The position numbers and the translations under genes are program-made. This document shows positions 6,219-24,924 of a stretch of 64,000 nucleotides of DNA, piece after piece; positions within the stretch are counted from its first letter, which is position 1, and every line of letters begins with the position of its first letter. Below the pieces are notes generated by a model, which saw only the letters and a program-made list of their open reading frames with translations, did no database searches and had not been told where the DNA came from. This stretch comes from Flavobacteriales bacterium (GTDB lineage Bacteria > Bacteroidota > Bacteroidia > Flavobacteriales_D > Crocinitomicaceae), in the NCBI GenBank assembly GCA_947447525.1, contig CANFJL010000008.1, positions 62,001 to 126,000 of the forward strand. The letters are read 5' to 3'.

Positions 6219-6524
6219 TTAAGAAATGGCTTTCAAAAGTTTCTTAGGATCTTGGCGATTATCCCAAAATGCCATAACGATTATTTGATCAGAAGTAATT
6301 TTATAATACAGACTGAAATGCCCCATTGCTGATTCGCGCGCTTCATCAATTTCAGATTCCTTGAATGCATCTGGATTTTTGGAAATTACCTTTAGATGCT
6401 TTGCAGTTATATCAATCAATTTCTCCGCATAAGTTGTGCTCTTATTCCTATCTGTCCAATATCTTAATATCTCACGACGCTGTTTAGCTGCCGTTTCGGT
6501 CCAGACTATTTTCCTTTTAACCAT
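6219..6524 (-). CDS. RelE/ParE family toxin
   Basis: 101 residues, the usual size for this toxin superfamily. The opening VWTETAAKQRREILRYW, the NKSTTYAEKLIDITAKHLKVISKNP middle, and the closing beta hairpin (SLYYKITSDQIIVMAFWDNRQDPKKL) match RelE/ParE proteins, which either cleave ribosome-bound mRNA or poison gyrase. The C-terminal FWDNRQDP is the common family ending. It overlaps the antitoxin gene just upstream by 19 bases, the classic translationally coupled type II arrangement. Whether it is an RNase or a gyrase poison cannot be told from sequence alone. Confidence 0.9.
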   Translation of the reverse strand: MVKRKIVWTETAAKQRREILRYWTDRNKSTTYAEKLIDITAKHLKVISKNPDAFKESEIDEARESAMGHFSLYYKITSDQIIVMAFWDNRQDPKKLLKAIS

Positions 6525-7506: not shown

Positions 7507-8427
7507 CTAATCAAAAAGTAAATTTGACTTTTTTAAATAATTACCATGGGTATTCAATTTGATTTTAAGTCCAATAGAATGACTGTTCAGGTTGACTTGT
7601 TGCACTGGACTCCAACCATTTTCAAATAAATAGTTAATAACTAAAGACTTATTGATCCGTCCACCTATACCAAATTGGAAAGCTTTGAGGGATGTTGTAC
7701 CAACAAATACATTAAATCGCTCCATATAGCTTAACTTGAATAAAAGAAAATAATTGATCGGCGTATGTGCTATGTATGAAATTCGAAGCGATGGAACCAA
7801 ACTTAGTTGTTTGTTTAAATCTACAATGGTTCTACCATAACAAGCATATTCCGTTCTAAAAGAGGAATTATTTCCAATGGGGCCCCAATTTTTGGTAATT
7901 AAATCTTCTAAATATAAGCCTAGCATGTATTTCTTTCCAACATAACTCAATCCAGCGCTTACTTGTGGAATAAATGCTTGTCCGGTACGCTGCACTATAT
8001 TGTCTTGAAGATTTGTCACCACTTTATCGGCATCATAACCCACTTGGATTCCCCCAAAACCAATGCCTAAACTCAAACGATTTTCGTCATTTGTTTGAAT
8101 ATTTGCCGCTCCAGCAACTTGTAGTTTAGTAAGTGAAAATGCCCCGATATTTTCTCTTTGAATTTGGATTCCCATTCCAAACATAGGAGCATCACTCTTA
8201 AAATCATTGAAAGGAATTGAAAGTGAAGTGTTCATTGTTTTAGGAGCTCCGTCAAACCCAACCCATTGCGTTTTAAGTCCTGTGAATAACTCAACATGCT
8301 GATTCAATCCATTGTGTGCGGGATTAATTCCTCCCCAATTCATTGCAAAACTATTCCAATTGGGTGTCATTTGTCCAAAACTGTTGGACAATAAAATTAG
8401 AAATAAGAAAGAAATTATATTCTTCAT
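7507..8427 (-). CDS. PorP/SprF family type IX secretion outer-membrane protein
   Basis: 306 residues with a signal peptide (1-18, ending SFGQ). The mature start (NWNSFAMNWGGINPAHNGLNQHVELFTGLKTQWVGFDGAPKTMNTSLSIPF) is the PorP/SprF signature: a NPA-type element, then QWVGFDGAP, then a first barrel strand. The remainder is a run of amphipathic beta strands. Family members such as SprF in Flavobacterium johnsoniae are needed for surface exposure of a partner substrate encoded beside them. Here the partner is the type B-sorted protein directly upstream (one base between the genes), so the two are surely co-transcribed. Confidence 0.93.
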   Translation of the reverse strand: MKNIISFLFLILLSNSFGQMTPNWNSFAMNWGGINPAHNGLNQHVELFTGLKTQWVGFDGAPKTMNTSLSIPFNDFKSDAPMFGMGIQIQRENIGAFSLTKLQVAGAANIQTNDENRLSLGIGFGGIQVGYDADKVVTNLQDNIVQRTGQAFIPQVSAGLSYVGKKYMLGLYLEDLITKNWGPIGNNSSFRTEYACYGRTIVDLNKQLSLVPSLRISYIAHTPINYFLLFKLSYMERFNVFVGTTSLKAFQFGIGGRINKSLVINYLFENGWSPVQQVNLNSHSIGLKIKLNTHGNYLKKSNLLFD

Positions 8428-8428
8428 C

Positions 8429-9259
8429 TTATCTAATAATTGAAATAGTTCCTTTTCTTATTCCCTTGTCTTGACCTAAATCTAAGATGTAAAAATACAC
8501 GCCTTCAGGTAGGGGCTTATCATTATAATTTCCAGTCCAAGAGTTGCCAATGGTGTAAGGACTTGATTTATATAATTCATGACCGAAACGATTCAAAATT
8601 ACCATAGCATTTTCAGGATAATTTTCGATCCCAGGAATGACCCAAGTTTCATTCAGGCCATCACTATTGGGTGAGAATGTATTGGGAATTTTAAAAGTGC
8701 CTTTTACAAAAACAGTTACATAATCGAACTTGACACAATTGGATAAAACTCCTTTCAATGTAAAGGTGGTCGTTTCTGTGGGTTGTGCAGTAGTCAATAA
8801 ATTAGTCGAAGAAAGAACTAAAAAAGGGGGTGACCACAAATAAGATTCAGCAGTGCCATTGGCTAGAAAATTAGCGACTTGACCTGAATCAATAAACAAA
8901 TCAGGGCCAGCGTCTAAGATAAAACTATGTACTTGAATTGGAGCGCTTACACTGGTTAATGTAATGATGCTATCTACTGCAAGCGTGCATGCTAAAGTCG
9001 CAGATAATATATCATTTTGATTAAAAAAAGATGAATTAAAAACACAATCCGATTCATTTGCAACCACGGCACCATTGATATACCATTGTACTTGTCCCAC
9101 GAGTGGACAATCTTGAATAATTAAAGAAAAACCCAAATCCTCCCCTTCACAAATCGTATCCGTTTGTGTAGATATTTGAATAAAAGGAGCTTGACTACAA
9201 CAAAGATTGTCTGTTGAAATAAGCGTTAACATTAAAATAACAAAAAGGACTGCTTTCAA
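8429..9259 (-). CDS. Secreted protein with T9SS type B (gliding-motility) C-terminal domain
   Basis: 276 residues from a TTG start at 9259; the reading frame has no ATG before the next upstream stop codon, and the signal peptide (KAVLFVILMLTLIS) follows at once. The C-terminal 85 residues are a CHU_C/type B sorting domain: IPNTFSPNSDGLNETWVIPG, then ILNRFGHELYKS, then NYNDKPLPEGVYFYILDL, ending KGTISIIR. This domain directs outer-membrane passage through the type IX system. The N-terminal part has an Ig-like pattern with a few cysteines (CEGEDLGF, CPLVGQVQWYINGAVV) but no recognised catalytic motif. The PorP/SprF gene follows after one base and is probably its dedicated anchor. Confidence 0.88.
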   Translation of the reverse strand: MKAVLFVILMLTLISTDNLCCSQAPFIQISTQTDTICEGEDLGFSLIIQDCPLVGQVQWYINGAVVANESDCVFNSSFFNQNDILSATLACTLAVDSIITLTSVSAPIQVHSFILDAGPDLFIDSGQVANFLANGTAESYLWSPPFLVLSSTNLLTTAQPTETTTFTLKGVLSNCVKFDYVTVFVKGTFKIPNTFSPNSDGLNETWVIPGIENYPENAMVILNRFGHELYKSSPYTIGNSWTGNYNDKPLPEGVYFYILDLGQDKGIRKGTISIIR

Positions 9260-9408: not shown

Positions 9409-12400
9409 ATGAGAAACATTTACCTAACATTTATTGCGCTATTCTATTTTGCTAATGTATTCGCACAACATGGGGATTATGAGAACACCTCTAAATGGTT
9501 TTTAGGATTGAATGCAGGAGCGACTTGGAATTCAACCGACGTTAAAAATAAAACTGCTTCTGGATGGGGATTAACCCTCGGTAAATCCTATAATTATGAC
9601 TACGGTAAAATTTTAAGTTTTGATCTTCGCGCCCGATACTTGCGTGGATATTGGTATGGACAAGATTATGACACCACCAATTTGGACAACTATACAGGAA
9701 CAAGTTTAAACTATTATGATTCATTAACAGGATATTCTGTCAACAACTTCCAGGCCGATGTACATCGCTTGGCTTTTGAATTGGTCATCCATGCGAATAG
9801 AATTAGAGAAAGAACAGGCTTTGATCCGTATATCTTTGGTGGAGTGGGCTTTACTTGGCATCAAACCTATGGCGACTTATACGATAGTACTTATTACGAT
9901 TATGCTAGTTTGGTACAAGACGGAACCTTAAGTTCTATGTTGACAACTACTTTAGATGGGATTTATGATACGCCATTAGATGGAAGTAGTACCAAGACAA
10001 AAGTAAACTTTATGCCGAGTCTTGGCTTTGGATTAGGATATCAAATTGGGAAAAGAACCACTTTTGGGATTGAACACAAGACTACTTTTACAAGAGGAGA
10101 CTCCTTTGATGGTTTCATTTCACAAACTCCAAGAGCAAGAAATGATTGGTATCATTATACCTCTGCTTATATCCAATTTAGATTTAAGACGCACACCTAC
10201 ACTACAACAGAACCAATAAATAGTTCTTCGAATATTAATAATTATAACACTCCATGCCCGAAGCCGGTAATCACGATTGGTAATAGCACTGTAACGGTTA
10301 ATGCAAGCACTTATAATTTAACGGCCAACATTACAGAAGTAAATTCTGAAAATGAAATTAGCCTAATGAATATGATGGTGAGTAATGGCATAGCAGTTCC
10401 CTTTACTTATAATGCAAGCACCCACCAACTTCAAGCAAGTGTAACATTAGTGCCGGGCAACAATTCTTTTACTATAAAGGTTCAAAACAATTGTGGATCT
10501 GAAATAAAAAATATTACCGTAATTTACAATAATTGTATCCCTCCAAGCATTAGCATCACTAATCCTGCGAACAATAATTTAACTGTTACAAGTCCAAATT
10601 TTGTTTTTTCTTCCTTAATTCATGGCATCAGTAATCAACAAGCAATTACCTTATTTGTGAATAACACGCAGATAACTAATTACACTTTTAATACAAGTAC
10701 AGGACTGCTACAATGTAATTTAATGTTGAATGCTGGAGCAAATATCATCCATGTTGATGTACGCAACAGTTGCGGAAACGCAAGCGAAAACACTACGGTT
10801 ATTTATAACGATTGTATAACTCCTAGTTTTCAGTTGGCATTACCTTCAAGTACAGGTACCACAACAAGTACAAGTACCTACACTGCGAAAATAAATGCTG
10901 TTGGATTCAAAAACAGCAGTGAAATAACCATTAGTCAAAATGGAACTAGAATTAGCAATTTTAGCTTTATCAACAGTACCATTACACTGCCCTTGCAATT
11001 ATCAAGTGGTATGAATACCATTACCATCAATGGAACGAACCTTTGTGGATCAGATGCCATATCTTTTACTATTAATTATCAAAATTGTAATGCACCTGTT
11101 ATCACTTTAGTCAACCCTACTCAGTTAAATACTACCAGTAATTTGCAAGCAATGAGGGTGAAATTAAAAGTAGAAAATTGCACCAAGAACAATATGCATT
11201 TATTGCTTAATAATGTCTCAATTTCGAATTTCACATTTAATGAAACCACTAAAATAGTAGAAGCAAGTTTGGTGTTAAGTCCAGGAAATAACATCTTCTT
11301 AATTAATGCTAGCAATAATTGTGGGCTTGATGCAGCGACCTTAAATATTAATTACAATGATTGTAAAAGTCCCATTGTTACGATTAATGGAGCCAACAAT
11401 ACCACACAAAATATTGCGTCATTTGTTCTGAGTGCATCAATTCAAAATATGAATAGTGCTCAAGGGATTACACTTACATTGAATGGTACGCCAATCAATT
11501 TCAATTTATTGAATGGGCAATTAACCAGTTACACCAATCTACAACCTGGTATGAATGCATTTGTTTTAAGTGCAGTTAATGGTTGTGGAAATCAAAGTCA
11601 AACACTAAATGTAAACTATAATAACTGCACTGCACCCGTTATTACACTAGTGGCTCCATCCATTACAGGAACAACGGTTGGTAATGCCAATTACAATTTT
11701 CAAGCTTTAGTAAGTAATGTGACCAATCAACAAAACATCAGTGTCAAATTGAATAATGTTACTGTTCCATCTAGTTTATTAAATGGGGTATTGGTTGCTT
11801 CTTTAATACTTATTGAGGGAAACAATACAGTGGTAGTTGCAGTTAGTAACGCTTGTGGAAATGATACAGAAACCTTCAATATCCTTTACAGTAAATGTAA
11901 AGCACCAATAGTGCACCTTACGAGTCCTGGTATATTAATGACGAGCACCAACCAGAATAACCTTCAATTTGCAGGATCTGTGGAGAACATTGCAAGTCCA
12001 CAAGAAATGACAATCCGATTGAATGGTCAAATTGTTCCGTTTACCTATCTAAATGGGCAATTTTCCGGAAGTGTCAGTTTAATAAATGGCGCTAACATCA
12101 TACTCGTTACGGCAACCAATAGTTGTGGTACCGATATTGCACAACACAGCATTATTTACAATAATTGCACCGCCCCAAGTATTATCAATCCAACACCTTC
12201 TGCACTTAATACAATCACATTATCACCCCAAATTACAATAAGTGCACAATTACAAAACATTAGTGCCGCACAGCAAATTTCACTCCTACTCAATGGGGTA
12301 AGTCAAAACTTTACTTTTGTGAACAACCAAGTTAATGCAAGCTTAAACTTGAGCACTGGAAACAACATGATCGTATTAAGTTGTACCAATAATTGCGGAA

Positions 12401-14715
12401 CAGATATTAAGAACTGGAATACTACTTATAATCCTTGTATTCCTCCAATAGTAACTATTACTAATCCAAGTAATTCAGGAACAGTAGTAAATACAGCTAG
12501 TTATAATTTTACAGCAACGGCTACCAACATTCAAAATACGCAACAAATCAGTGTAACATTAAATGGTAGTGCCGTCAATAATTTTACTTACAATAATGGA
12601 ACTATTAACGCTAATTTAACTTTAGCGGCTGGATTGAATACCATAATTGTTCAAGCAAATACAGGTTGTGGATTGGTTTCAGAAAATAGTACGGTCAATT
12701 TTAATAATTGCGTAGCCCCTAATATTATTTTAGGGAATATGAATACCACCACAAGCACTGCACCTTACTTAGTACAAGCGAATCTTCAAAACATGAGCAC
12801 TAATCAAGGAATCATTTTTACTCAAAATGGCACTGCCATTTCAAATTACACTTTTTCAGCGGGTCAATTGAGTGCAAATGTTACCCTTTCCCCAGGACAA
12901 AACACTTTTTTCTTAAATGTTTCCAATGCCTGTGGAAATGACCAAGAGAACTTTATAGTCAATTACAACAATTGTGTTGCACCGAGCATTACGATACAAA
13001 ATACGGGAAACACTAATGTTCTTGTGCCTTCCTATACCTTAAATGCAAGTGTTAATAACATGCCATCTGCACAAGGTGTCAGCTTAAGCTTGAATGGAAA
13101 TCAATTGACCAACTTTACATTTAACAACAATCAATTGGCTGCAGCTGTTAATTTACTGGCAGGAATTAACACATTCGTTATCAGCGCACAAAATTCTTGT
13201 GGGACAGATTCAGAAACTATAACAGTAAATTATGATAATTGTAAAACACCTGTTGTAATTATCAATGCAAATAGTGGATTAACAGTTAACTCAGGAACAT
13301 ACAATCTTCAGGCCCAAGTGAGCAATATGAATTCTATTCAGGGAGTACTGTTGACTTTCAATGGGCAAAATATCATTAATTTCACTTACAATAATGGAGT
13401 TGTTTTAGCGCAAGTTAACCTCATTCCTGGAGCAAATAGTTTCGTGTTGAGTGCTCAAAATGACTGCGGTAGAGATTCTCAAATCCTTGATGTGACCTAT
13501 TTAAACTGTGTTGCACCAAATGTTACCATAACAAGTGGTTCGGGTGTGACAGTTTCAAATAATGCCTTTAATTTACAAGCGCAGATAAGTAATATGAGTT
13601 CCACCCAAGGTATTAGCGTTCAACAAAACGGACAAAATATCAGTAACTATACCTTTGTAAATGGACTTTTGATTGCCAATGTCACACTAAGCAATGGATT
13701 AAATACTTTTAACATCAATGCTCAAAACGCTTGTGGAACAGATGCTGCAACAAGTACAATAACTTACCAAGAATGTTTAGCTCCTACGGTACAAATTAAT
13801 GCTGCCATTCCAAATAATTCTAGTACCACCAACGGAACTTTGACGATAAATGCCAGTATTGGAAATTATGATCCACTTACCACCATTTTAGTGACTAAAA
13901 ACGGAAATGTTGTGAATGGATATGCAAATAATAATGGTCAAATTTCAGGTACTTTAAATATAGCAATAGGGACAACCATTATTGTAGTTTCAGCCAGTAA
14001 TGCTTGTGGTTCAGACAGTGAAACGTACACCATTGAAAGATGTAAAATTCCAACCCTGACCTTAGTTACTCCTGGTTCGATTGCAACAACAGTACAATCC
14101 AGTGCTTATTTCATACAAATGAATGCAGAAAATGTTGGGGATATTAGCATGATTAATGCTACTCAAAATGGAGCGCCACTTGGAGGAATGACCTTATCGA
14201 ATACCATCTATGGAGGCATGGTAAGCTTACAGCCTGGAATCAATACGTTTAATGTTCAAGTTGCAACGGGTTGTGGAACAGCACAATTGTCCTTTACGAT
14301 CAACTACACCGTTCAAAACAATGGCAATACAATTTCACCAAATGGACAGGGTCAAAATTTGAATGGTGGAAATTCAGATTCAAATGGATCGGGGAATCAA
14401 AACAACAATGGAGGTAATAGTGATAACAATTCAGATGGCGATGGATTGTTAAAAACGAATAACGGTTCAGAAAAAATACAGACTCCAAGCACACCAATTA
14501 AACCTGCTGCTCCAAAACCAACAGTAGTTACTCCAACTCCAGTGACGCCTGCACCTGTAAAACCAACCGTGGTGACACCAGATCCAGTGAAACCTGCTGC
14601 TCCAAAACCAACGGTTGTGACTCCTGCACCTGCAAAACCGACAGTTATTACACCTGCACCTGTTACTCCTGAAAAACCTCCCGTTAAAAATGAAAAATCC
14701 GGTGGTGGAAAATAA
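9409..14715 (+). CDS. Giant surface protein: outer-membrane barrel, 15 Ig-like repeats, Pro/Lys-rich tail
   Basis: 1768 residues. A signal peptide (1-19, ending NVFA) is followed by about 250 residues of alternating aromatic strands (WFLGLNAGATW, LSFDLRARYLRGYWYG, YIFGGVGFTWHQTYG, PSLGFGLGYQIGKRTTFGIEH), which read as a small outer-membrane beta-barrel. Residues about 283-1637 hold 15 repeats of roughly 90 residues. Each begins C-x-x-P, carries an LNG-x-x-x-N-F-T-Y/F strand and ends N-x-C-G; the two cysteines per unit suggest one disulfide per Ig-like domain. The last 130 residues are Asn/Gly/Ser-rich, then repeats of KPTVVTP type. No T9SS sorting domain is visible. Likely an adhesin or cell-surface stalk; no enzyme motif seen. 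A terminator follows at 14738-14759. Confidence 0.85.
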   Translation: MRNIYLTFIALFYFANVFAQHGDYENTSKWFLGLNAGATWNSTDVKNKTASGWGLTLGKSYNYDYGKILSFDLRARYLRGYWYGQDYDTTNLDNYTGTSLNYYDSLTGYSVNNFQADVHRLAFELVIHANRIRERTGFDPYIFGGVGFTWHQTYGDLYDSTYYDYASLVQDGTLSSMLTTTLDGIYDTPLDGSSTKTKVNFMPSLGFGLGYQIGKRTTFGIEHKTTFTRGDSFDGFISQTPRARNDWYHYTSAYIQFRFKTHTYTTTEPINSSSNINNYNTPCPKPVITIGNSTVTVNASTYNLTANITEVNSENEISLMNMMVSNGIAVPFTYNASTHQLQASVTLVPGNNSFTIKVQNNCGSEIKNITVIYNNCIPPSISITNPANNNLTVTSPNFVFSSLIHGISNQQAITLFVNNTQITNYTFNTSTGLLQCNLMLNAGANIIHVDVRNSCGNASENTTVIYNDCITPSFQLALPSSTGTTTSTSTYTAKINAVGFKNSSEITISQNGTRISNFSFINSTITLPLQLSSGMNTITINGTNLCGSDAISFTINYQNCNAPVITLVNPTQLNTTSNLQAMRVKLKVENCTKNNMHLLLNNVSISNFTFNETTKIVEASLVLSPGNNIFLINASNNCGLDAATLNINYNDCKSPIVTINGANNTTQNIASFVLSASIQNMNSAQGITLTLNGTPINFNLLNGQLTSYTNLQPGMNAFVLSAVNGCGNQSQTLNVNYNNCTAPVITLVAPSITGTTVGNANYNFQALVSNVTNQQNISVKLNNVTVPSSLLNGVLVASLILIEGNNTVVVAVSNACGNDTETFNILYSKCKAPIVHLTSPGILMTSTNQNNLQFAGSVENIASPQEMTIRLNGQIVPFTYLNGQFSGSVSLINGANIILVTATNSCGTDIAQHSIIYNNCTAPSIINPTPSALNTITLSPQITISAQLQNISAAQQISLLLNGVSQNFTFVNNQVNASLNLSTGNNMIVLSCTNNCGTDIKNWNTTYNPCIPPIVTITNPSNSGTVVNTASYNFTATATNIQNTQQISVTLNGSAVNNFTYNNGTINANLTLAAGLNTIIVQANTGCGLVSENSTVNFNNCVAPNIILGNMNTTTSTAPYLVQANLQNMSTNQGIIFTQNGTAISNYTFSAGQLSANVTLSPGQNTFFLNVSNACGNDQENFIVNYNNCVAPSITIQNTGNTNVLVPSYTLNASVNNMPSAQGVSLSLNGNQLTNFTFNNNQLAAAVNLLAGINTFVISAQNSCGTDSETITVNYDNCKTPVVIINANSGLTVNSGTYNLQAQVSNMNSIQGVLLTFNGQNIINFTYNNGVVLAQVNLIPGANSFVLSAQNDCGRDSQILDVTYLNCVAPNVTITSGSGVTVSNNAFNLQAQISNMSSTQGISVQQNGQNISNYTFVNGLLIANVTLSNGLNTFNINAQNACGTDAATSTITYQECLAPTVQINAAIPNNSSTTNGTLTINASIGNYDPLTTILVTKNGNVVNGYANNNGQISGTLNIAIGTTIIVVSASNACGSDSETYTIERCKIPTLTLVTPGSIATTVQSSAYFIQMNAENVGDISMINATQNGAPLGGMTLSNTIYGGMVSLQPGINTFNVQVATGCGTAQLSFTINYTVQNNGNTISPNGQGQNLNGGNSDSNGSGNQNNNGGNSDNNSDGDGLLKTNNGSEKIQTPSTPIKPAAPKPTVVTPTPVTPAPVKPTVVTPDPVKPAAPKPTVVTPAPAKPTVITPAPVTPEKPPVKNEKSGGGK

Positions 14716-14825: not shown

Positions 14826-17051
14826 ATGGCAATTATTGGAAAAATTAGAGAAAAATCAGGTCTATTAGTTGGAATAATAGGTTTAGCATTGTTAGCTTTC
14901 ATTCTATCTGACTACAAGAGTATGATGGGTGGTTCGGAAGGCGAATTTGGAATTGGTTTGGTTTATGGAGATAAAGTTGACATCAACAATTACGGAGCAT
15001 TAAGCAGTCGTGTACAAGACCAAGATAGAGCACAAGCTGAAAAAGAGCAAAAACCATTTGGAGAAACTGAAATGGAGGCGGCTAGTGATAAAGCTTGGAA
15101 TTTCATGGTGGATTCTATGTTACTTCAAAAAGAATATGATGCATTAGGGATCAGCGTTTCAGACAAAGAATTTAATTCTTATCTAATGGCTTCTGATGGA
15201 TTTACTCCTTTACAAGATTTAGCTTCCTTTTTTACAGACTCCGTAACTGGAGCTATTTCAGACCAATCTATTATGTTGGGTCGTCAAAAACTACAACAAA
15301 CTTTAAATCAATTAAAAACTAGTAAAGAGCCTCAAGCTAAGAGTCAATGGGAAGGAACTAAAAAATACTATACTGACAGAAGAAAGCAAGAAAAATACTT
15401 TGCACTTGTTGGACAAGGTGTATATGTAACCAAGTTAGAGGCTGAGGAAGAGTATTTTGCTCAAAAAGAAATTAAAAACATCTCATTTGTACAAAGACGA
15501 TATACTGAAATCAATGATGCTGATATTAAAGTTAAAGAATCTGAAATTCAAGCATTCTATGACGCACACAAATCAGATAAAAAATACATGAATCGTTCTT
15601 CCAACCGTGAGGTTAAGGTTTTTTCTGTGATTATTTCACCCTCTAAAAAAGACACTTTAGCGTTCTCTAAAATAGTTATGAAGTTAAAAGCAGATTTTTC
15701 TGCATCAACAAATGATTCCATTTTAGTGATGAAGGAAAGTGATATGAAACAATACTTTGGAGACAAAAGAGCAACGGCTGTGCCTGAAGGTCATGAAAAA
15801 GCAAATAGATTCTTAACCTACCCAAGAGATTATGACACGATCTTTAAGTTGGCTAAAGTCGGACAAATTGTTGGTCCATATGCTGTAAATGAAAGCATGA
15901 TGATTTCCAAGGTAATTGGATTTACTCCAACTCATATTAAAGCAAGACACCTTTTAATTTCAACAAATGGCTCTAAGGATGCAAAAGTACTAGCAGCAAA
16001 GCAGAGAACTGCAGATAGCCTTGTTAAATTGATGAACAAAGATAATTTTGCTGAATTTGTAACAAAATTTAGTGATGATCCAGGTTCGAAAACTACAGGT
16101 GGGGTATATGAGAATTTCTTAGAAGGAGAAATGGTTAAAGAATTCGGTTCTTTCTGTGCTACTAATCCAATTGGAAAAATTGGAGTTGTAAAAACAGATT
16201 TTGGTTTTCATATTATTGAAGTAATGGAGCGTGACGCTAGTGTTTTTCCTGTACTTACTACCATTCAAAAAACATTTAAAGCTTCTGAAGAAACTATATC
16301 AAATAAAGAAAGTGAAGTAAATGATATCTTGTATGAGTTAGATAAGAAAATTTCCAAAGTCGAAGATCCTATCAAAAAAATAGATTTGTTCGATACAATT
16401 GTTCGTAAAGCTGGTTATTTCGCATCTCCTATGTTAATTGAAGATGATAATGCTAAAGTCTACGGAATGACAACAAGTATGGCGGCTGACAAAATATTAG
16501 AATTAGCTTATTCAGAAAATGTAGCTGTAGGTTCTTTAACTTCTTATCCAATTAAGGATAAAGATAAATATGTTATAGCAATTGTTTCTGCTATTAAAGA
16601 GAAAGGCGAGCCTTTATATGAGCATGTTAAAAAGCAAATGGAAAAGGAAATTATTGAAGAAAAGAAAGCGAAACGACTCATGAATCAAATGGCTAAGAAA
16701 AGCTTGACAGAATTAGCGCGTATAGGTAATACAACCGTTATGGATGCACAAGTAACTTTTGGTAATCCATCTATTGGCAATGCTGGTTACGAGCCAGAAA
16801 TTGTAGGCGCTTTATTCTCAGTGATTAAAGATGGTAAAACTACCTTACCACTTAAAGGTAAGACTGGTGTTTATGTTATCAAAGTAAAATCAACAACTAA
16901 AGCAGCTGCTACCTCAAATTATAATGCAGAAAGAGATCAACTTTTAAATACTTTAAAAGGATCCGTTCAAGGTCAAGTATTAACTGCATTGAAAAAGAAA
17001 GCAGAAGTGGTTGATAATAGAAAATTATACAATATAAGAGTTCGTTTGTAA
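14826..17051 (+). CDS. ppiD: PpiD-type membrane-anchored peptidyl-prolyl isomerase/foldase
   Basis: 741 residues. One membrane helix at about 12-28 (LLVGIIGLALLAFILSD) follows a short cytoplasmic start, so the body is periplasmic. A SurA/PpiD-like helical domain extends to about residue 350. A parvulin rotamase domain covers about 370-470 (HIKARHLLIST, FAEFVTKFSDDPGSKTTGG, GKIGVVKTDFGFHIIEV). The C-terminal part returns to mixed helix and strand, with a second degenerate parvulin-like segment possible. PpiD-type proteins chaperone outer-membrane and secreted proteins as they leave the Sec channel. It is monocistronic, with its own promoter and a bidirectional terminator after it. Confidence 0.92.
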   Translation: MAIIGKIREKSGLLVGIIGLALLAFILSDYKSMMGGSEGEFGIGLVYGDKVDINNYGALSSRVQDQDRAQAEKEQKPFGETEMEAASDKAWNFMVDSMLLQKEYDALGISVSDKEFNSYLMASDGFTPLQDLASFFTDSVTGAISDQSIMLGRQKLQQTLNQLKTSKEPQAKSQWEGTKKYYTDRRKQEKYFALVGQGVYVTKLEAEEEYFAQKEIKNISFVQRRYTEINDADIKVKESEIQAFYDAHKSDKKYMNRSSNREVKVFSVIISPSKKDTLAFSKIVMKLKADFSASTNDSILVMKESDMKQYFGDKRATAVPEGHEKANRFLTYPRDYDTIFKLAKVGQIVGPYAVNESMMISKVIGFTPTHIKARHLLISTNGSKDAKVLAAKQRTADSLVKLMNKDNFAEFVTKFSDDPGSKTTGGVYENFLEGEMVKEFGSFCATNPIGKIGVVKTDFGFHIIEVMERDASVFPVLTTIQKTFKASEETISNKESEVNDILYELDKKISKVEDPIKKIDLFDTIVRKAGYFASPMLIEDDNAKVYGMTTSMAADKILELAYSENVAVGSLTSYPIKDKDKYVIAIVSAIKEKGEPLYEHVKKQMEKEIIEEKKAKRLMNQMAKKSLTELARIGNTTVMDAQVTFGNPSIGNAGYEPEIVGALFSVIKDGKTTLPLKGKTGVYVIKVKSTTKAAATSNYNAERDQLLNTLKGSVQGQVLTALKKKAEVVDNRKLYNIRVRL

Positions 17052-17132: not shown

Positions 17133-17606
17133 TTAAGGTTCAAAAAACAAACGACCATTGATCCAAGAAGGATCTAGGACAGCATTGTTTTTCTTATAGA
17201 AGTTAATTGCTGGAGTATTCCAATCCAAAACTTGCCAATCCATCCGTGCTACTTTGTGCTCCTTGGCTACCTCCACAACTGCATCAAATAAGATCTGACC
17301 AATTCCATCACTTCTATAGGCATCTTTAACATAAAGATCTTCTAGATAGACACATTTACCTTTCCAAGTTGAGTAAGAAAAGAAATATAAAGCAAATGCT
17401 ATGACTTCATGTAGATTTTTATCCTCTACTACAAATGCATGACAAACCTTAGCTTGAAACAAATCAATTTTGATTTGATTTGGTGTATTTATTACTGCTA
17501 GAGGTTCCTTTTCAAATACAGCAAGTTCGGTTATTAAACCATGAATTGCAGTTTCATCCCCTGGAAGAGCAATGCGTAAATTGTATTTATTATTGAACTC
17601 CTGCAA
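17133..17606 (-). CDS. GNAT family N-acetyltransferase (diamine/SSAT-like)
   Basis: 157 residues. The core GNAT features are visible: a central strand VYLEDLYVKDAYR, the acetyl-CoA loop RSDGIGQILFDAV, and a late DWNTPAINFYKKNNAV helix. The YSTWKGKCVYLEDLYV and VLDWN motifs are close to those of spermidine/spermine (diamine) N-acetyltransferases, so a small polyamine-like or amino-acid-like substrate is likely, though not certain. Translation appears to start at a TTG at 17606, inside the end of sprA (17-base overlap), so it is probably expressed as the last gene of the odhA-to-sprA series. Its role is likely unrelated to secretion. Confidence 0.88.
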   Translation of the reverse strand: MQEFNNKYNLRIALPGDETAIHGLITELAVFEKEPLAVINTPNQIKIDLFQAKVCHAFVVEDKNLHEVIAFALYFFSYSTWKGKCVYLEDLYVKDAYRSDGIGQILFDAVVEVAKEHKVARMDWQVLDWNTPAINFYKKNNAVLDPSWINGRLFFEP

Positions 17607-20600
17607 GGTTAAATCGAACTTTAATCCCTGTATTTAAATTTCCAGTTGGATAACTTGTTGCTACTTTAGGTTTATTAATGTTTTGATCATAAAATAAAGT
17701 CACGGTTAAATTTTGAGAAAGATTATAATCAATATTAAACTTAAAGGCAATTATTTTAGCTCCGGCTGTAGCTTGATTTGTATTCTCTACCACCTTTCTA
17801 ATCACAGTTGAATTATCTCTAAAGGAGAAATTAATTCCCGCGTTCATATCACTAGCCGGTATTTTTTTAATCAATTTTAATTTAGTGATTTTAGATTGTA
17901 GTCCGACTACAATTTCTTGTCCCATTATTTCTGTAACTTGATTGTTATTCAGCGATAAGGTAGATTGTCTATCCTTTTTATATTCAAATTTAGTTGTTAA
18001 GGATTGGCCGAAAAGTAACCAAGTTGCATCTAATCCAATTAATGGAGAGAACTGTTCACTGATAGTAACATTTTGAATTTGCATTCCAGAAATAAAATTA
18101 TTATTTAAATCCAAACCATTTGCATTTCCATTATTATCAAATGTTGCACTTAGGTTAGACTGCATGCCATTTACAGTTACTGTTGAGTTATAGGCATGTC
18201 GAAGAACAAAAGACTTCACATAATCCTTTGCAAATGGGAATTTAGAAAGACCGTTATAAGTAACACTCCAATTTGGTAAAGGTGAATTTTTAAGTGGGTT
18301 TACATGTTGTTCATTTACGCTTGTATTTCCGTAGGCTGTTAAAAATGCCCCCAAGACAACTTCCTGTTGACTTCCACTATATCCACTATAATAACCAGAA
18401 GCGGCCATACTTGAATTAGGATTTTGAGCTCCAATAACTTGAGAAACAGCAACCCTATTCGCTAATAAATCAGCGAAAACTTGAGAAGAATTGTCTCTAG
18501 CGTTAGCAACAAAAGCAGTTGCCCATGTGATTGTTGAGTAGGTTAAGTTCGCTGTTTCAAACCTACTTTGTCCCTCAAACTGAGAAGTAAGAGAATTCCA
18601 TCGATAAAACTCACCTGAATTTTTACCATAATTCCTATTCATTTTCAACTCAATATTCAGATCTTTAATCGGTTCCAAACTAGCTCTTAAATTAAGAGTG
18701 GTTGCATGCGTAGTAGTAAATTGCTTATTTAAATTCTCATTTTGCACCAACCAACCATTTCCTGCCGCAGCATTGGCAATATTATAACCATTCGATTGAC
18801 CCCAGACATCGTAGCCTTGACGACCAAATACAAAACCACTTAGCTGAGTGCTACTGCCATTCATACCAAGGATTCGTGAGTCTTGATTGTAACCAGGCAA
18901 TAAGGTTCCGTCATTTACCGTGTAAGTTCCAGATATATTCCTAACGGTCATCACAAGCCTTGCAGCAAAACCACCAATTGGATTAACTTTTTCTTTTTGA
19001 CGCTTTTCTTTTAATTTATTTCGTTCAAACTTCCTCAGCTTTCGTTCAAACTTGCGGCGTTCTTTTTTGGTCATGTCTTCTAAAGGCTTTGGAGGTTGCA
19101 AGGTGGCTTCTGGTGCCTTAGGTTTATCTCCTGGCTTTGTGCCTCCGGGATTATTTCCGCCTACATCCTTTGAATTGATTGCCCCTCTTGAATTTCTTCC
19201 ATCTGAAAGCACCCGTTTGAAATAAGGAATCTTATTGTAGAGAGTAACAAAATTGGCTTGAGAAGTCATATTTATAGATCGATTATTTTGAATAATATTT
19301 CCATATTCTGCTTGTCCAAGTGGTGCGCGCTGCCAATTGTAAGTACCCGTATATTTTGCATTTGCAGTTAACCAATCTGTAATAGGTAATTTGTCGAAAG
19401 GCAAAGAATAACTCAAATTATAATTATGACTGTAGTCCATTGTTTTACCAAAGGTTGACATCTGAGAACGAATAGAATCTTTAAACTCTGTAAAACCATT
19501 GGGATCCAATTTACGGTCTACCCTATTATTACCTTCAACAAAAATTGATTTATTGGTCGCTGTGAAACTAGCTTTCAAATTCTTAGTGATATCATAGCCA
19601 ATATTATAATTCCTTGTCCAATCAAAACGTTTCAAAAATACGGGTTGAAATTCATAATTAGGTACTAGATTATTTCTAACTTGTCTTTCATTATAGATTC
19701 TAGAATAATCATTCGTAAAGGAAATATTCTTTGGCATTAAATAGACATTAAAGTCTTTAACGAGTTGCAGCCATTTGGACTTCTGCACAGGTTTCCATTT
19801 TTTGAAAGGTTCAATAGCCTTTCCGGTGAATGTGTAATTGTAATTTAATGCACCTGTCCATGTTTTGGTTTTATCATAATTGATGTTAAAATCCCTTTTT
19901 AAATTCTCAGCATAAGCATAACTCGCCGACCAGTTAGAAATTCTATAGAAATGAGCTTTTGCTCCTGCTTTCGCTTCTTTACGGACATTGGTAAAGTTGT
20001 AAGATCTTCTTTCCGTAAAATCTTGTCCCATTTTCGCACGTTGTTTGCGCGTTATTGGATCATAATCCGCTAGTTTAATATCAGGATTAAATGGATCATA
20101 TTCAGGATTGATAATGCCTAATGAATATCCATAAAAGAAAGGTAAAGACATCCTTGCTTGTTTACCAAAGAATTGACCCAATTGAACATTTGAATTTAAG
20201 TCAACTCCTATTTTTTGATTTCTTTGACGTTCTTGAACACGACTTTCAACGCTTCCCCAATTGATTCCAGAATAATTTCCAGATGCAGAAACAGTAGCAA
20301 AATCAGCCACTTGGACTTGCATTTGCCCAACCGCAGCTGAACCACCTTCACTGACAAAATCAGTAAGTCTTAATTCATTAATCCAAACAATGGCACAATC
20401 CGCTTGACCATCATCTGGCAAAGTATTAGTGGGATCATTTTTTAATGGATTTCTAACGCCAACCATAATGGTGCGCATGGCTTGCAAGTTAGGACTACCT
20501 TTAATTTTGATTTTTCTAGTTGCATTCGCAGGATCTTGTTTGACATATTCTAACAAATAGGAAATTCCTGTTGCACCTTGTTCAATTTTGGAGTTCCTGT

Positions 20601-23600
20601 CTTTTTTTAGATTGAGTAAATCGTCAAAAACAATTTCCATATTATTTCCTTCGGGCCAAATAGATTCAGGAGTTGTTGAACCCCAAGGAGTAACCTCCAT
20701 TGGTAATTCGTACTCATAATAGTTCTCTACAAAATCAGTTCCCAATCGAACAAACAAGGTCAAATCATTTGTATGCAAAGGTCTCAAAGGATCCACCTCT
20801 TCAGCATGAATAAACATTTTTAATTTCTTGTAAGTTCTAACATCAAATTGGACATTTTTGTAAGCAGCTCTTGCGTCTCCATCTTGCAAATTACAGACTT
20901 CGAGAACTAAAGATTGTTCGTTAAGCTGTCTTTGATATGTTTGAGATGGATCAATTTCACGTGTTATACCTGGAGGAATTTCATATTTAATTGGAGTACG
21001 TTGATCATTTTCTTCAACATTTACTGCAGCAATATTAAAGGTAGTAAGATTTGGATCTTGTTGTACACTTAAACCAGGATGCGTCAAATCATTGTTATAC
21101 CGCCTCCATTCGCCACGAATCAATTCTAGTTTTGCAAAGCGCAATTGAACCTCTTCATCGAATCCCTTCATAAAAATACGCATAAATCTAATCGAACGGA
21201 AATCTTGAATTCCATTTACTTTTTTCTCAAAATCACGTAAAGGAATTTTTACTTGATACCAATGTTCCGTTTTTGTGCCGTTTTGATACAATTGCATATT
21301 GGTGATATAATTTTTCCCAACTGCCATATCATTTGGTCGTATACTCATTTTGTATTGGAAATAGCTCTCCGATTCAGATAAGTTATTGTCTTGATTGATA
21401 TCCTCTAAATCGGGCATGTTGGTGGCTTGCGTTGGATATGCAGCAGCGTTGGCAGTATCCGACATTTCTGTTGTTGGGGAATTACCTTGCATTCCATTAT
21501 ATTTCTTGTAACGTTTTAAGATATTTGCTTTTTCCGTATCATAATTATCATCTAAGTAATAATTATAATTATCATTTGATGGATCTGAAATCATTCTTGC
21601 TTTAACATCTGGCGTAAGATCAGGTTGATTTTGAACCCATGTAACATAAGAACTAAAAGAAGTTCTTTCATTGACATCATTCCATCCATCAATACCAACA
21701 TCCTGATTTAATCTAGAAGCTGGATCAGTATCAAAAGCATTTACAACTACCTGTTGTGTAGAAACTCTTGACCATAAAGTAGTATCAAGATTATCTACCG
21801 CTGATGTTCCCAGAGCAGGAAGACCATTTTCAAAACTTTTTCTAGAATCTGGGAGGATATCTTCAGATACATTTCCAAGATTAAAATAAAGATCACCCCC
21901 GTTATGTGTTGCATTGGGATTCACATTTTCGGCATCTTCATTAAATGGATCGAGGACCCAAAACTGAATAAATTCAATATTCGTTTGTTCAAAATCATTC
22001 GTTGTTAAAGCTCGCATAATACCACCCCATCTATTTTCAGGATTGGTGAAGGTGCCATCAGGATTTACTGTATTGGTGGTGTCATAATTATTCATTCCTC
22101 TTTCAGAAGGATAATAATATAAGTCTAGAACAGAAATATTAGGAATCGAACCATATTGCTGCTGAAGATTTGGAAAAATATCTTTTTGATTCACCAAACG
22201 CATTCTACTATCTGCCAACATAGAAGCATCTTGTTTTATATGATCAGGTGTTAGAGAATTACTTTGATAAAACAAAGGATCAATCATATACCAAGCAATT
22301 TTAGATCTTTTATATCCAGCACTAAGATTTTTAATAGTGGCTTCAGGAAACAAGTCTGGTTGACCTTGTGGAATTGACGCCAAACGCCAAGCTGTAACAG
22401 ACTTAAGGTCTATAGCACTTTGACTTGCTTCAAAATCATCAATATATGAAGTTCCAGATTTATTTATCACCCTTGGCTGACCAGGAATAATGGTAGCTAC
22501 CTCTCCAGTAAAAGAAAATGTAGACATTTGATTCGTTGAAATAACCGGCAACATATCCACCAATTTTGTAAGGAAAGGCACATTAGTCCGAATGGCAAAG
22601 TCGGCACCTAAAACATTATTCTTAAATGGCTCACTACCGAAATCGACCTTTTGAGTTACAGGTCTTTCGGTCATGCGCACCCAGGTTGCGCCCACTTTAA
22701 ATTTATTGTTAAATCTATATTGATAGCGACCTCCAATTAAGGAGCGCGCTTGAAAACCAAAAACGGAATTACTTTCAATCGCAATTTTTATTGGCGTATT
22801 GGACTCCAAAATTCCTGAATTTAGAATTTTCACTCTTCCAAGATTATAATCGACCGTATAGTCTGTGCCTTCTATCAACTTAATTCCTCCTGCTGTAACC
22901 GAAACTGCTCCTTGAGGGACATTCAATGCATTTAATGGAATGTCAGAACTCACTGAGGACTGATACTCGCCTTTAAATACAAATCGATTTTTACTTGGTA
23001 TCTGTTGTGCAGCTGTTTTGGTTGAATCGTACAATTCATAGAAAGACACTTTATCTATCGTTAATTGAGGAATACCTGCAGCGGTAAGTTTAGCTGCTAA
23101 AGTTTTTCCAAAAGGCTCAATGGTAGAGAAAAAGATACGGCCATTTTTACGATTGATCGTCCCACCATTATCAATTTTATTGTTAACCACATTAAAAGGA
23201 GCAAAATCAAAAACACCATCAGAAAACGGCTGGTTATTTTGATTGATCTTATCCATATCAAGAAGCGTAACCAACTGCTGATCATCAACACCATTCAATG
23301 GGAAAATTGGAAGGAGCACAGATGTTTCTGGATTATTATAAAGAACATCAACTCTAAATCCAAGTTGATCCACTTGATATGCGCCTATTGAATAGACATT
23401 TTTCATCATCAAATCCCAAACCTTATTTCTTGGATTTGTAATAGTCGGTTTAAGTAATTTCAAAAATAAAGATTGTGATCCATTAGATCCATCCGTTGAA
23501 AATTCACCTACTTGATAAGTATCACCGCGGTAGGTATATTCGTAAGCGACGCCTAATACCTCATCATTATTTAATGGGTTATTTAATGAAATGTAACCCA

Positions 23601-24924
23601 AAAGAGCATTATAAGTAAATTCTTGTTCCGTTAACTTACGAGCATTTTCTATTTTCTCATAGTGAATGGCTTGCATAAAGGGACCTGGAGCAGTAACCTG
23701 TGAACTCAAAACACTTACTGCATTTGAGAAACCTCTTACTAATGGTTGACTTACTGCCCATTCGTAAAGATTATTGGCTTCATTATCCGGTTCAATTGCT
23801 GTTTGATTTCCGCCAGGAGTTCCTTGCCAGTTTTGTTGTTTACCTTCACCTAAGTCAGCAAAGGCAATTATATTTCGAGTATTTTCGGTGTTATTCGTTC
23901 TGTTGGTGATCCATACCTCAATTCTTGTAATATAGCGTGTTGAATTAACTACAGGTAATGTCGACATCGCAGAATCATAATGTTGTTGATGGTATAAATT
24001 AAGGAAGTAATGACGATTTGCTTCATAATTATCAGCTGTCAATTCAAATTTCTGCACTTGAGATTTTCCAGTAATATTAATTTCTTGTCTTTTTCCTTTG
24101 GATGAGGCTGCGATTAAATCTACAGTTGCACGTCCAAATTTCAATTGAGTTTTGGCACCAAAAAGCGTCTGTGATCCTTGAATTAAAGAGGTAGGCAATG
24201 TTAAACTAACTTGTCCTAAAGCTACTTTCTGAAGAATTTGATCCTCATTACCTGTATGCTCTAATTTAGATACATTTTCGAAATCAAACGATGCTTGAGT
24301 ACTATATTTTGCGCCGATTTTTAATTTAGTTCCAATTTGACCAACGATATCCATATTGATATTTTGCTGGAAATCAAAGCGTGTTATTTTTCTTTGACGC
24401 ATAGGCAAAATCGGATTGTCATAGCGTGATGAGTTTACACCAAATTGAACTTCTACATTTCCTTGAGGACGGATGGTAATTTCATCTGATCCAAAGAAAT
24501 TCTCAAATGCTTTACTTCCAATTTTTATTGGCAATTCAAAAGATCGACCAATTACAGATTCTTCTTCAATAATTTCTTGCCAATTTTGAACTGTTGATTT
24601 GCTGTTTTCATAATTCAGATATTCCTCCAAGGTCATTGCTGAAGGATAACGATAATTTAATCCTTGACCAAGTGTTTCTCTAAATACATAAGTACCCGTA
24701 ATCGGATCATAAACAATTGTTTGATTTAATTTAGTGGGATCTCCTAAATCAAAATTCTGTGTACTATTTTGATACGGATTAAATGGATTAAAAATCGGAA
24801 ATGGAAGTGTTGGTGTATTTTGAGAAAAAGCAAATTCAGATGTGAAAAGCAGGAGCATTACCAAAAGCACAATAGGCCTCAGTGTAAAAACTTGTTTTTT
24901 CAAATGAGAATAATTCTTTATCAA
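17590..24924 (-). CDS. sprA: SprA, outer-membrane translocon of the type IX secretion system
   Basis: 2444 residues, the usual SprA length (about 2400). A signal peptide (about 12-34, LRPIVLLVMLLLFTSEFAFSQ) is followed by a proline/asparagine-rich start. SprA hallmarks follow, including the IRPQGNVEVQFGVNSSRYDNPILP segment, INMDIVGQIGTKLKIGAKYSTQASFDFEN, and the GKTLAAKLT region. The rest is a very large beta-barrel with the final strand GIKVRFNLAGVQ. In Flavobacterium johnsoniae, SprA forms a giant 36-strand barrel through which T9SS substrates cross the outer membrane; it is also needed for gliding. It follows ruvA by one base, so the two are co-transcribed. A KKERRKFERKLRKFER basic loop lies at about 1950. 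Confidence 0.96.
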   Translation of the reverse strand: MIKNYSHLKKQVFTLRPIVLLVMLLLFTSEFAFSQNTPTLPFPIFNPFNPYQNSTQNFDLGDPTKLNQTIVYDPITGTYVFRETLGQGLNYRYPSAMTLEEYLNYENSKSTVQNWQEIIEEESVIGRSFELPIKIGSKAFENFFGSDEITIRPQGNVEVQFGVNSSRYDNPILPMRQRKITRFDFQQNINMDIVGQIGTKLKIGAKYSTQASFDFENVSKLEHTGNEDQILQKVALGQVSLTLPTSLIQGSQTLFGAKTQLKFGRATVDLIAASSKGKRQEINITGKSQVQKFELTADNYEANRHYFLNLYHQQHYDSAMSTLPVVNSTRYITRIEVWITNRTNNTENTRNIIAFADLGEGKQQNWQGTPGGNQTAIEPDNEANNLYEWAVSQPLVRGFSNAVSVLSSQVTAPGPFMQAIHYEKIENARKLTEQEFTYNALLGYISLNNPLNNDEVLGVAYEYTYRGDTYQVGEFSTDGSNGSQSLFLKLLKPTITNPRNKVWDLMMKNVYSIGAYQVDQLGFRVDVLYNNPETSVLLPIFPLNGVDDQQLVTLLDMDKINQNNQPFSDGVFDFAPFNVVNNKIDNGGTINRKNGRIFFSTIEPFGKTLAAKLTAAGIPQLTIDKVSFYELYDSTKTAAQQIPSKNRFVFKGEYQSSVSSDIPLNALNVPQGAVSVTAGGIKLIEGTDYTVDYNLGRVKILNSGILESNTPIKIAIESNSVFGFQARSLIGGRYQYRFNNKFKVGATWVRMTERPVTQKVDFGSEPFKNNVLGADFAIRTNVPFLTKLVDMLPVISTNQMSTFSFTGEVATIIPGQPRVINKSGTSYIDDFEASQSAIDLKSVTAWRLASIPQGQPDLFPEATIKNLSAGYKRSKIAWYMIDPLFYQSNSLTPDHIKQDASMLADSRMRLVNQKDIFPNLQQQYGSIPNISVLDLYYYPSERGMNNYDTTNTVNPDGTFTNPENRWGGIMRALTTNDFEQTNIEFIQFWVLDPFNEDAENVNPNATHNGGDLYFNLGNVSEDILPDSRKSFENGLPALGTSAVDNLDTTLWSRVSTQQVVVNAFDTDPASRLNQDVGIDGWNDVNERTSFSSYVTWVQNQPDLTPDVKARMISDPSNDNYNYYLDDNYDTEKANILKRYKKYNGMQGNSPTTEMSDTANAAAYPTQATNMPDLEDINQDNNLSESESYFQYKMSIRPNDMAVGKNYITNMQLYQNGTKTEHWYQVKIPLRDFEKKVNGIQDFRSIRFMRIFMKGFDEEVQLRFAKLELIRGEWRRYNNDLTHPGLSVQQDPNLTTFNIAAVNVEENDQRTPIKYEIPPGITREIDPSQTYQRQLNEQSLVLEVCNLQDGDARAAYKNVQFDVRTYKKLKMFIHAEEVDPLRPLHTNDLTLFVRLGTDFVENYYEYELPMEVTPWGSTTPESIWPEGNNMEIVFDDLLNLKKDRNSKIEQGATGISYLLEYVKQDPANATRKIKIKGSPNLQAMRTIMVGVRNPLKNDPTNTLPDDGQADCAIVWINELRLTDFVSEGGSAAVGQMQVQVADFATVSASGNYSGINWGSVESRVQERQRNQKIGVDLNSNVQLGQFFGKQARMSLPFFYGYSLGIINPEYDPFNPDIKLADYDPITRKQRAKMGQDFTERRSYNFTNVRKEAKAGAKAHFYRISNWSASYAYAENLKRDFNINYDKTKTWTGALNYNYTFTGKAIEPFKKWKPVQKSKWLQLVKDFNVYLMPKNISFTNDYSRIYNERQVRNNLVPNYEFQPVFLKRFDWTRNYNIGYDITKNLKASFTATNKSIFVEGNNRVDRKLDPNGFTEFKDSIRSQMSTFGKTMDYSHNYNLSYSLPFDKLPITDWLTANAKYTGTYNWQRAPLGQAEYGNIIQNNRSINMTSQANFVTLYNKIPYFKRVLSDGRNSRGAINSKDVGGNNPGGTKPGDKPKAPEATLQPPKPLEDMTKKERRKFERKLRKFERNKLKEKRQKEKVNPIGGFAARLVMTVRNISGTYTVNDGTLLPGYNQDSRILGMNGSSTQLSGFVFGRQGYDVWGQSNGYNIANAAAGNGWLVQNENLNKQFTTTHATTLNLRASLEPIKDLNIELKMNRNYGKNSGEFYRWNSLTSQFEGQSRFETANLTYSTITWATAFVANARDNSSQVFADLLANRVAVSQVIGAQNPNSSMAASGYYSGYSGSQQEVVLGAFLTAYGNTSVNEQHVNPLKNSPLPNWSVTYNGLSKFPFAKDYVKSFVLRHAYNSTVTVNGMQSNLSATFDNNGNANGLDLNNNFISGMQIQNVTISEQFSPLIGLDATWLLFGQSLTTKFEYKKDRQSTLSLNNNQVTEIMGQEIVVGLQSKITKLKLIKKIPASDMNAGINFSFRDNSTVIRKVVENTNQATAGAKIIAFKFNIDYNLSQNLTVTLFYDQNINKPKVATSYPTGNLNTGIKVRFNLAGVQ

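Follow-up and report, generated by a model that had tools for sequence, protein, structure and literature searches.

On which side of the outer membrane does a long chain of Ig-like domains lie when it is attached to a small membrane barrel, and what might such a chain be for? We have analyzed this question for one gene in a 64,000-nucleotide stretch of DNA from a relative of the flavobacteria, referred to below as the window. The ORF at 9409-14715 (+) encodes 1768 aa. An earlier note had described its product as an outer-membrane barrel joined to 15 Ig-like repeats and had proposed that it forms a surface stalk of an unrecognised class. The architecture is borne out by AlphaFold2 and by a repeat HMM; the surface location is not favoured by the observations presented here. 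We consider that there is about an even chance that this barrel-Ig protein is an OmpA-derived, length-tolerant link between the outer membrane and the cell wall, and that it works with type-B/PorP complexes.

Layout and conservation of the protein

The protein begins with a signal peptide (residues 1-20, 9409-9468 (+)), read from the sequence; Q20 is invariant in a 53-row alignment and cleavage would follow AQ. An eight-stranded OmpA-type outer-membrane barrel (residues 21-262, 9469-10194 (+)) is identified by AlphaFold2, Foldseek and profile homology. It is followed by a disordered linker (residues 263-282, 10195-10254 (+)), where the AlphaFold2 pLDDT falls below 50 at residues 264-280. The array of 15 Ig-like repeats, with one cysteine pair each, occupies residues 283-1635 (10255-14313 (+)) according to the repeat alignment, AlphaFold2 models of the first three and last two repeats, and the cysteine pattern. 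The remainder is a tail (residues 1636-1768, 14314-14712 (+)), disordered in AlphaFold2, which is Asn/Gly-rich and then Lys/Pro/Thr-rich and ends in KSGGGK; the Lys/Pro/Thr tail pointed out in the earlier note is indeed present.

Domain models recognise little of this protein. Its sole Pfam match is to Glucodextran_B, below the cut-off (24 vs 27 bits), and its sole NCBIfam match is to PorG (NF052316), at 27.2 bits against a cut-off of 130 bits. No T9SS sorting domain, either CHU_C or type A, is found in the Pfam and NCBIfam scans, as had been noticed before. PF00691 is absent from the whole protein in a Pfam scan with E values up to 1, and the Pfam scan also yields no recognised wall-binding domain and no TPR, beta-propeller or OmpA domain of the PorE type. 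A PDB search with the protein sequence gave no match, and a viral structure search gave nothing useful.

A chance ORF is ruled out, because dN/dS is 0.07-0.12 over the barrel and the repeats and because 167 of 200 family genomes contain a match to the barrel. When the regions are compared separately with two close relatives, dN/dS is 0.07-0.08 for the barrel, 0.10-0.12 for the repeats, 0.08-0.17 for the tail and 0.25-0.26 for the 20-residue linker. The 200 genomes are a draw from a larger family, and the match nearly always occurs once per genome; it is present in 134 of 146 good family genomes and in 22 of 24 genera. Most of the matched family frames listed exceed 800 aa; a minority, which may include frames cut by contig ends, are shorter. 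In the order, 97 of 199 genomes have a match (this draw overlaps that of the family), and in the phylum draw, at E 1e-20, 4 of 296 do, each of them belonging to the same class. Conservation in the family is thus clear, and the protein is apparently undescribed: no description was found in the literature searched, a scope that took in few subscription papers, and it is unnamed in the available portions of PMC9143113, PMC12618676, PMC12635249, PMC9870892, PMC11885536 and PMC5879114. The claim of an unrecognised class holds to that extent and is limited to that scope.

The 15 repeats, delimited by the cysteine pattern and the repeat HMM over residues 283-1635, are ~90 aa long, Asn/Thr/Ser-rich and weakly charged, with a mean pairwise identity of 0.34 (range 0.20-0.50). 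The earlier note had seen two cysteines per repeat; one stands at the beginning and the other ahead of the last strand, and together they account for 30 of the 33 cysteines. Across 1234 repeats from 111 proteins, a set that includes duplicate and incomplete proteins, a repeat has both cysteines or neither in 1218 cases; for pairs taken across adjoining repeats, agreement is 1061 of 1108. These counts favour a bond inside each repeat, and on this pattern a disulphide within each repeat is likely. Agreement is found in 111/111 first repeats and in 102/111 last repeats, where a single cysteine occurs in 9 of the 111. Cys283, which follows the barrel, is present in 39 of 53 homologues and absent in 14. 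Repeat number ranges from 4 to 22 (median 14) among 67 distinct complete family members, a set without L119, which lacks the start of the barrel, and without incomplete ORFs or identical copies. A role as an envelope-spanning length ruler was rejected on the basis of this range.

Barrel topology and the course of the chain

The earlier note had suggested a homologue search, which gave the variable repeat number above, and a structure prediction of the first 280 residues and of one repeat. An AlphaFold2 model of residues 1-540, computed with a 53-row alignment (53 of the 57 available sequences), consists of a barrel followed by beta-sandwich repeats. Its mean pLDDT is 85.2, and since pTM is only 0.46 the relative placement of the domains is not fixed by the model. 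The eight barrel strands are residues 30-41, 50-61, 70-85, 113-128, 138-155, 198-213, 217-227 and 247-258; the beta-sandwich repeats start at residue 283, with the Ig domains mostly at pLDDT 85-95. In a second run, from the penultimate repeat to the C-terminus, the two repeats were modelled at pLDDT ~95. The turns on the side of the termini are 8, 9 and 3 residues long and the loops on the opposite side 8, 27, 42 and 19 residues. These modelled lengths support the orientation of OmpA, with both termini on the short-turn side. Foldseek against the PDB returned an OmpA structure, 9fzd, as the top match (TM 0.71 on target), with titin Ig domains close behind. The barrel strands are more conserved than most of the loops.

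Kinship with OmpA is well supported by profile searches. A profile of 37 barrels, a subset of the 53 aligned sequences, matched 58 of 295 genomes of the class at E 1e-10 or better; eight candidates were scored per genome in the class and phylum searches. Strong class matches lie mostly in ORFs of ~1000-2600 aa, with a few shorter, and most weak matches in ORFs of ~280-620 aa. Ten weak-match loci were fetched: as read from sequence, seven encode a barrel, a TSP3-like segment and an OmpA-like domain, and the remaining three a barrel with TSP3-like and EF-hand-like segments. When six weak homologues were scanned with Pfam, PF00691 scored above its gathering threshold behind the barrel in four (L194, L196, L197 and L199), TSP_3 was just above the cut-off in L202, and EF-hand was below it in L200 and L202. 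Because these weaker barrel homologues carry an OmpA domain at the position of the Ig array, the array should start in the periplasm, and from the AlphaFold2 model and homology together we regard this as likely.

Ig domains are spaced at ~4 nm and the periplasm measures 20-30 nm. A straight rod of 15 domains, ~60 nm, exceeds the periplasm on these general values, in agreement with the earlier note, and the chain would therefore lie obliquely, fold back or follow the wall.

The tail has no predicted secondary structure, with pLDDT below 70 in AlphaFold2. Its net charge is positive in 54 and negative in 10 of the 67 distinct complete family members, and 47 of these 67 have at least two Gly at the end with at most one residue after them. 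In a 23-row alignment the terminal Gly-Gly-Gly-Lys/Arg is constant (23/23) while the rest of the tail varies; most of these rows were chosen for their GGGK or GGGR ends, which biases that count, and 47 of 67 is the fairer figure. As a genome-wide signal the ending was rejected: a pattern covering AAR and AGR codons only has four matches in the protein's own genome vs five for a control. The other three matches end frames of 10-22 aa, and the barrel-Ig gene is the only long ORF of that genome that ends in the pattern. In Lpp the C-terminal Lys is covalently attached to peptidoglycan; an attachment of this kind was also rejected, as Lys and Arg alternate at the end.

Several distant homologues lack the tail, including all four f32 members, and it is missing also in several homologues without an adjoining PorE; tail loss therefore speaks neither for nor against a link with PorE. 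The homologues L041, L134, L157 and L239 end in Ala/Lys coils, which by analogy recall TolA, a periplasm-spanning element. In L134, L140, L145, L157, L232 and L236 the Ig repeats are succeeded by a short Cys/His module in arrays (ITICH...W.AHQAHGD..G.C, with a degenerate version). Pfam names no module of the Cys/His type in L041 and L210, the two such proteins scanned.

Gene neighbourhood

The divergent neighbour of the barrel-Ig gene, at 8429-9259 (-), encodes a small protein that carries the T9SS secretion domain CHU_C (PF13585, 84.9 bits), and adjoining it at 7507-8427 (-) is a PorP/SprF-type outer-membrane carrier (PF11751, 121.2 bits). Downstream, at 14826-17051 (+), lies a PpiD/SurA-like peptidyl-prolyl isomerase identified by Pfam. 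It is probably a housekeeping gene, and it comes next in 50 of the 65 distinct loci where an ORF is visible on that side. A 2444-aa ORF (17590-24924 (-)), putatively encoding the T9SS translocon SprA, is found nearby, beyond a GNAT gene; a ParE-like toxin gene (PF05016) is located at 6219-6524 (-).

A comparison was made with 100 loci of the family, of which 93 are distinct after removal of seven duplicates and 90 have a visible upstream ORF. The 80 named loci are the best 80 of 192 and lean to close relatives, while 20 more were hand-picked across genera; neighbours were assigned from their longest open frames and by BLAST against a small set of references, with Pfam applied to a few only. 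A divergent CHU_C gene is found directly upstream in 54 of the 90 loci, and CHU_C together with the PorP/SprF carrier in 51. The adjacent CHU_C gene is missing in 36, among which L134 is counted, where the pair comes after a short frame that encodes a barrel. In 18 of 45 family loci the gene after PorP is that of an OmpA-like lipoprotein. In L091, L109, L138 and others near the window's locus, the pair is not upstream, genes of ~513 aa (presumably a glycyl-tRNA synthetase) and ~295 aa are found instead, and the barrel-Ig gene stays.

A second arrangement, with CHU_C, PorP, PorE-like and barrel-Ig genes in one direction, is seen in all four f32 and both f53 strong-match loci fetched, the gap from PorE to barrel being 44-111 nt. 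The PorE-like neighbours of L205 and L210, the two scanned, have PD40 and OmpA domains and TPR matches, that of L205 being below the cut-off for TPR. Altogether, among 30 loci outside the family, six are one-directional, two have the divergent pair (L239 and L241) and 22 have neither; these 22 include L227 and L229, which show no upstream gene, and L207, with a PorP-like gene two genes away.

Protein and pair do not always travel together. Among 17 genus relatives, chosen partly because in many of them the pair does not adjoin the gene, four have carriers of 44-57% identity beside the barrel-Ig gene; in the other 13 the best carrier has 23-28% identity, with none in one case. In G184 a 425-aa CHU_C frame lies beside a PorP-like frame away from the barrel-Ig gene. 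Four g2 genomes have the CHU_C/PorP pair and lack the barrel match, and in one of them, L215, CHU_C, PorP and OmpA-like lipoprotein genes stand in a row. The barrel-Ig protein and the CHU_C/PorP pair occur one without the other in some lineages.

Many of the PorP/SprF carriers beside a barrel-Ig gene (L160, L215 and L133, for example) have tail cysteines ~9 residues apart and end in CPLF or CPLFE. The window's own carrier lacks this twin-cysteine tail. It recalls the C-tail of SprF that is bonded to GldK, as given in the part of PMC12635249 available.

Proposed function and related systems

In the proposed link to the cell wall, the eight-stranded barrel would sit in the outer membrane with both ends periplasmic, as model and homology support. 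The usual wall-binding domain of OmpA would be replaced by the Ig chain, each domain probably stapled by a disulphide, and the chain would end in the disordered, mostly basic tail. We infer that the array stays in the periplasm, where it would run obliquely, folded or along the wall and not straight across, that the tail with its Gly-Gly-Gly-Lys/Arg end may bind the cell wall or a periplasmic partner, and that the protein would serve a type-B/PorP complex. Gene order suggests as partners the PorP/SprF carrier, its type-B T9SS surface protein and, in some lineages, the PorE-like wall-binder; on the same evidence, the surface complex would gain a length-tolerant link to the cell interior. The OmpA-like barrel, the homologues with PF00691, the cysteine pairing, the basic tails and TolA-like coils, and the order of the partner genes all speak for this reading. 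Against it count the lack of a known wall-binding domain, the negative or absent tails, the last repeats with a single cysteine, a rod longer than the periplasm and a repeat number that is variable, as in surface adhesins. The family loci without CHU_C, the outside loci with neither arrangement, and the occurrence of pair and protein each alone also weigh against it.

An alternative to a periplasmic chain is the surface stalk, in which the Ig array would lie outside the cell, having passed through or beside its own barrel or through the T9SS without a normal sorting domain. A ~60 nm rod of variable repeat number, composed of Asn/Thr/Ser-rich, weakly charged domains and encoded beside T9SS genes, would suit such a location, and the extra Cys/His modules of some homologues might do so too. 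We nevertheless judge the stalk unlikely, since an eight-stranded OmpA-type barrel with its termini on the short-turn side should lack room for a polypeptide hairpin and the known inverse autotransporters have 12 strands. Moreover, in homologous proteins OmpA domains come after the barrel, the linker is modelled as disordered, some homologues have TolA-like ends, and a sorting domain is absent. A periplasmic chain might instead be a general spacer from the outer membrane to the cell wall, functionally independent of the T9SS pair, its neighbourhood being historical. The separate occurrence of pair and protein and the 22 of 30 outside loci with neither arrangement agree with this. Yet like partners recur in two gene orders, the divergent one in the family and in two further families of the order, the one-directional one in f32 and f53, and a purely general spacer appears unlikely.

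Very unlikely, in our estimation, is a PorG-like component of the T9SS track, whose post-barrel cysteine would form a mixed disulphide with GldK and couple the barrel to the moving track. In its favour, NCBIfam offers no matching model other than PorG, PMC12635249 describes bonds from C-tail cysteines of PorG and SprF to GldK, and 39 of 53 homologues have a cysteine behind the barrel. However, the match is far below 130 bits, another gene of the same genome reaches 153.8 bits with two more at 87.7 and 83.7 bits, and the model also gives a sub-cut-off match in E. coli among 14 controls. Cys283, moreover, goes with Cys362 as for an intra-repeat bond, and is absent in 14 of the 53. A second PorG (27.2 vs 130 bits, with the other genome gene at 153.8 bits) was among the candidates rejected, together with T9SS-dependent export of the protein as a substrate (Pfam and NCBIfam give no sorting domain; tail disordered) and an inverse autotransporter (eight strands in the AlphaFold2 model).

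A more specific form of the proposed wall link is possible, and we offer it tentatively: the protein may be a fourth subunit of the surface-anchor complexes of type-B substrate, PorP and PorE. It would then be a periplasmic chain resembling titin and stapled by disulphides, its C-terminal Gly-Gly-Gly-Lys/Arg would dock on either the cell wall or the T9SS/gliding machinery, and the complex would be held or pulled via an elastic link. With the wall link, a conserved and apparently unnamed component would join those that hold T9SS-secreted surface proteins, and the OmpA plan would be shown to allow a long Ig chain in place of its wall-binding domain. It also presents a testable case, the arrangement inside the periplasm of a protein longer than the periplasm.

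Among known systems, the inverse autotransporters (intimin/invasin; type Ve) likewise have an N-terminal barrel followed by Ig-like repeats, but their barrel is 12-stranded, whereas that of the barrel-Ig protein has eight strands and a linker that is disordered in the model. The PorE-PorP-PG1035 complex of Porphyromonas gingivalis resembles the present system in its CHU_C and PorP/SprF neighbours and, in f32 and f53, in the PorE-like one. According to PMC9143113, type-B substrates are held by PorP-like proteins and PorE is described as peptidoglycan-binding; PMC12618676 describes type-B substrates as paired with carriers, a PorE homologue being added in five F. johnsoniae operons. The barrel-Ig protein is not among the components of the PorE-PorP-type B CTD complex named in the available portions of the two papers. 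T9SS PorG shares a small outer-membrane barrel, a periplasmic C-tail and a weak model match, but the barrel-Ig protein falls far below the cut-off that another gene of the genome passes; for PorG and SprF, PMC12635249 gives disulphides from periplasmic C-tail cysteines to GldK. The closest relation is to the OmpA family, with which the barrel-Ig protein shares the eight-stranded barrel fold, the orientation and, by profile, also descent; where OmpA has PF00691, the barrel-Ig proteins have instead 4-22 Ig repeats and, in most family members, also a tail.
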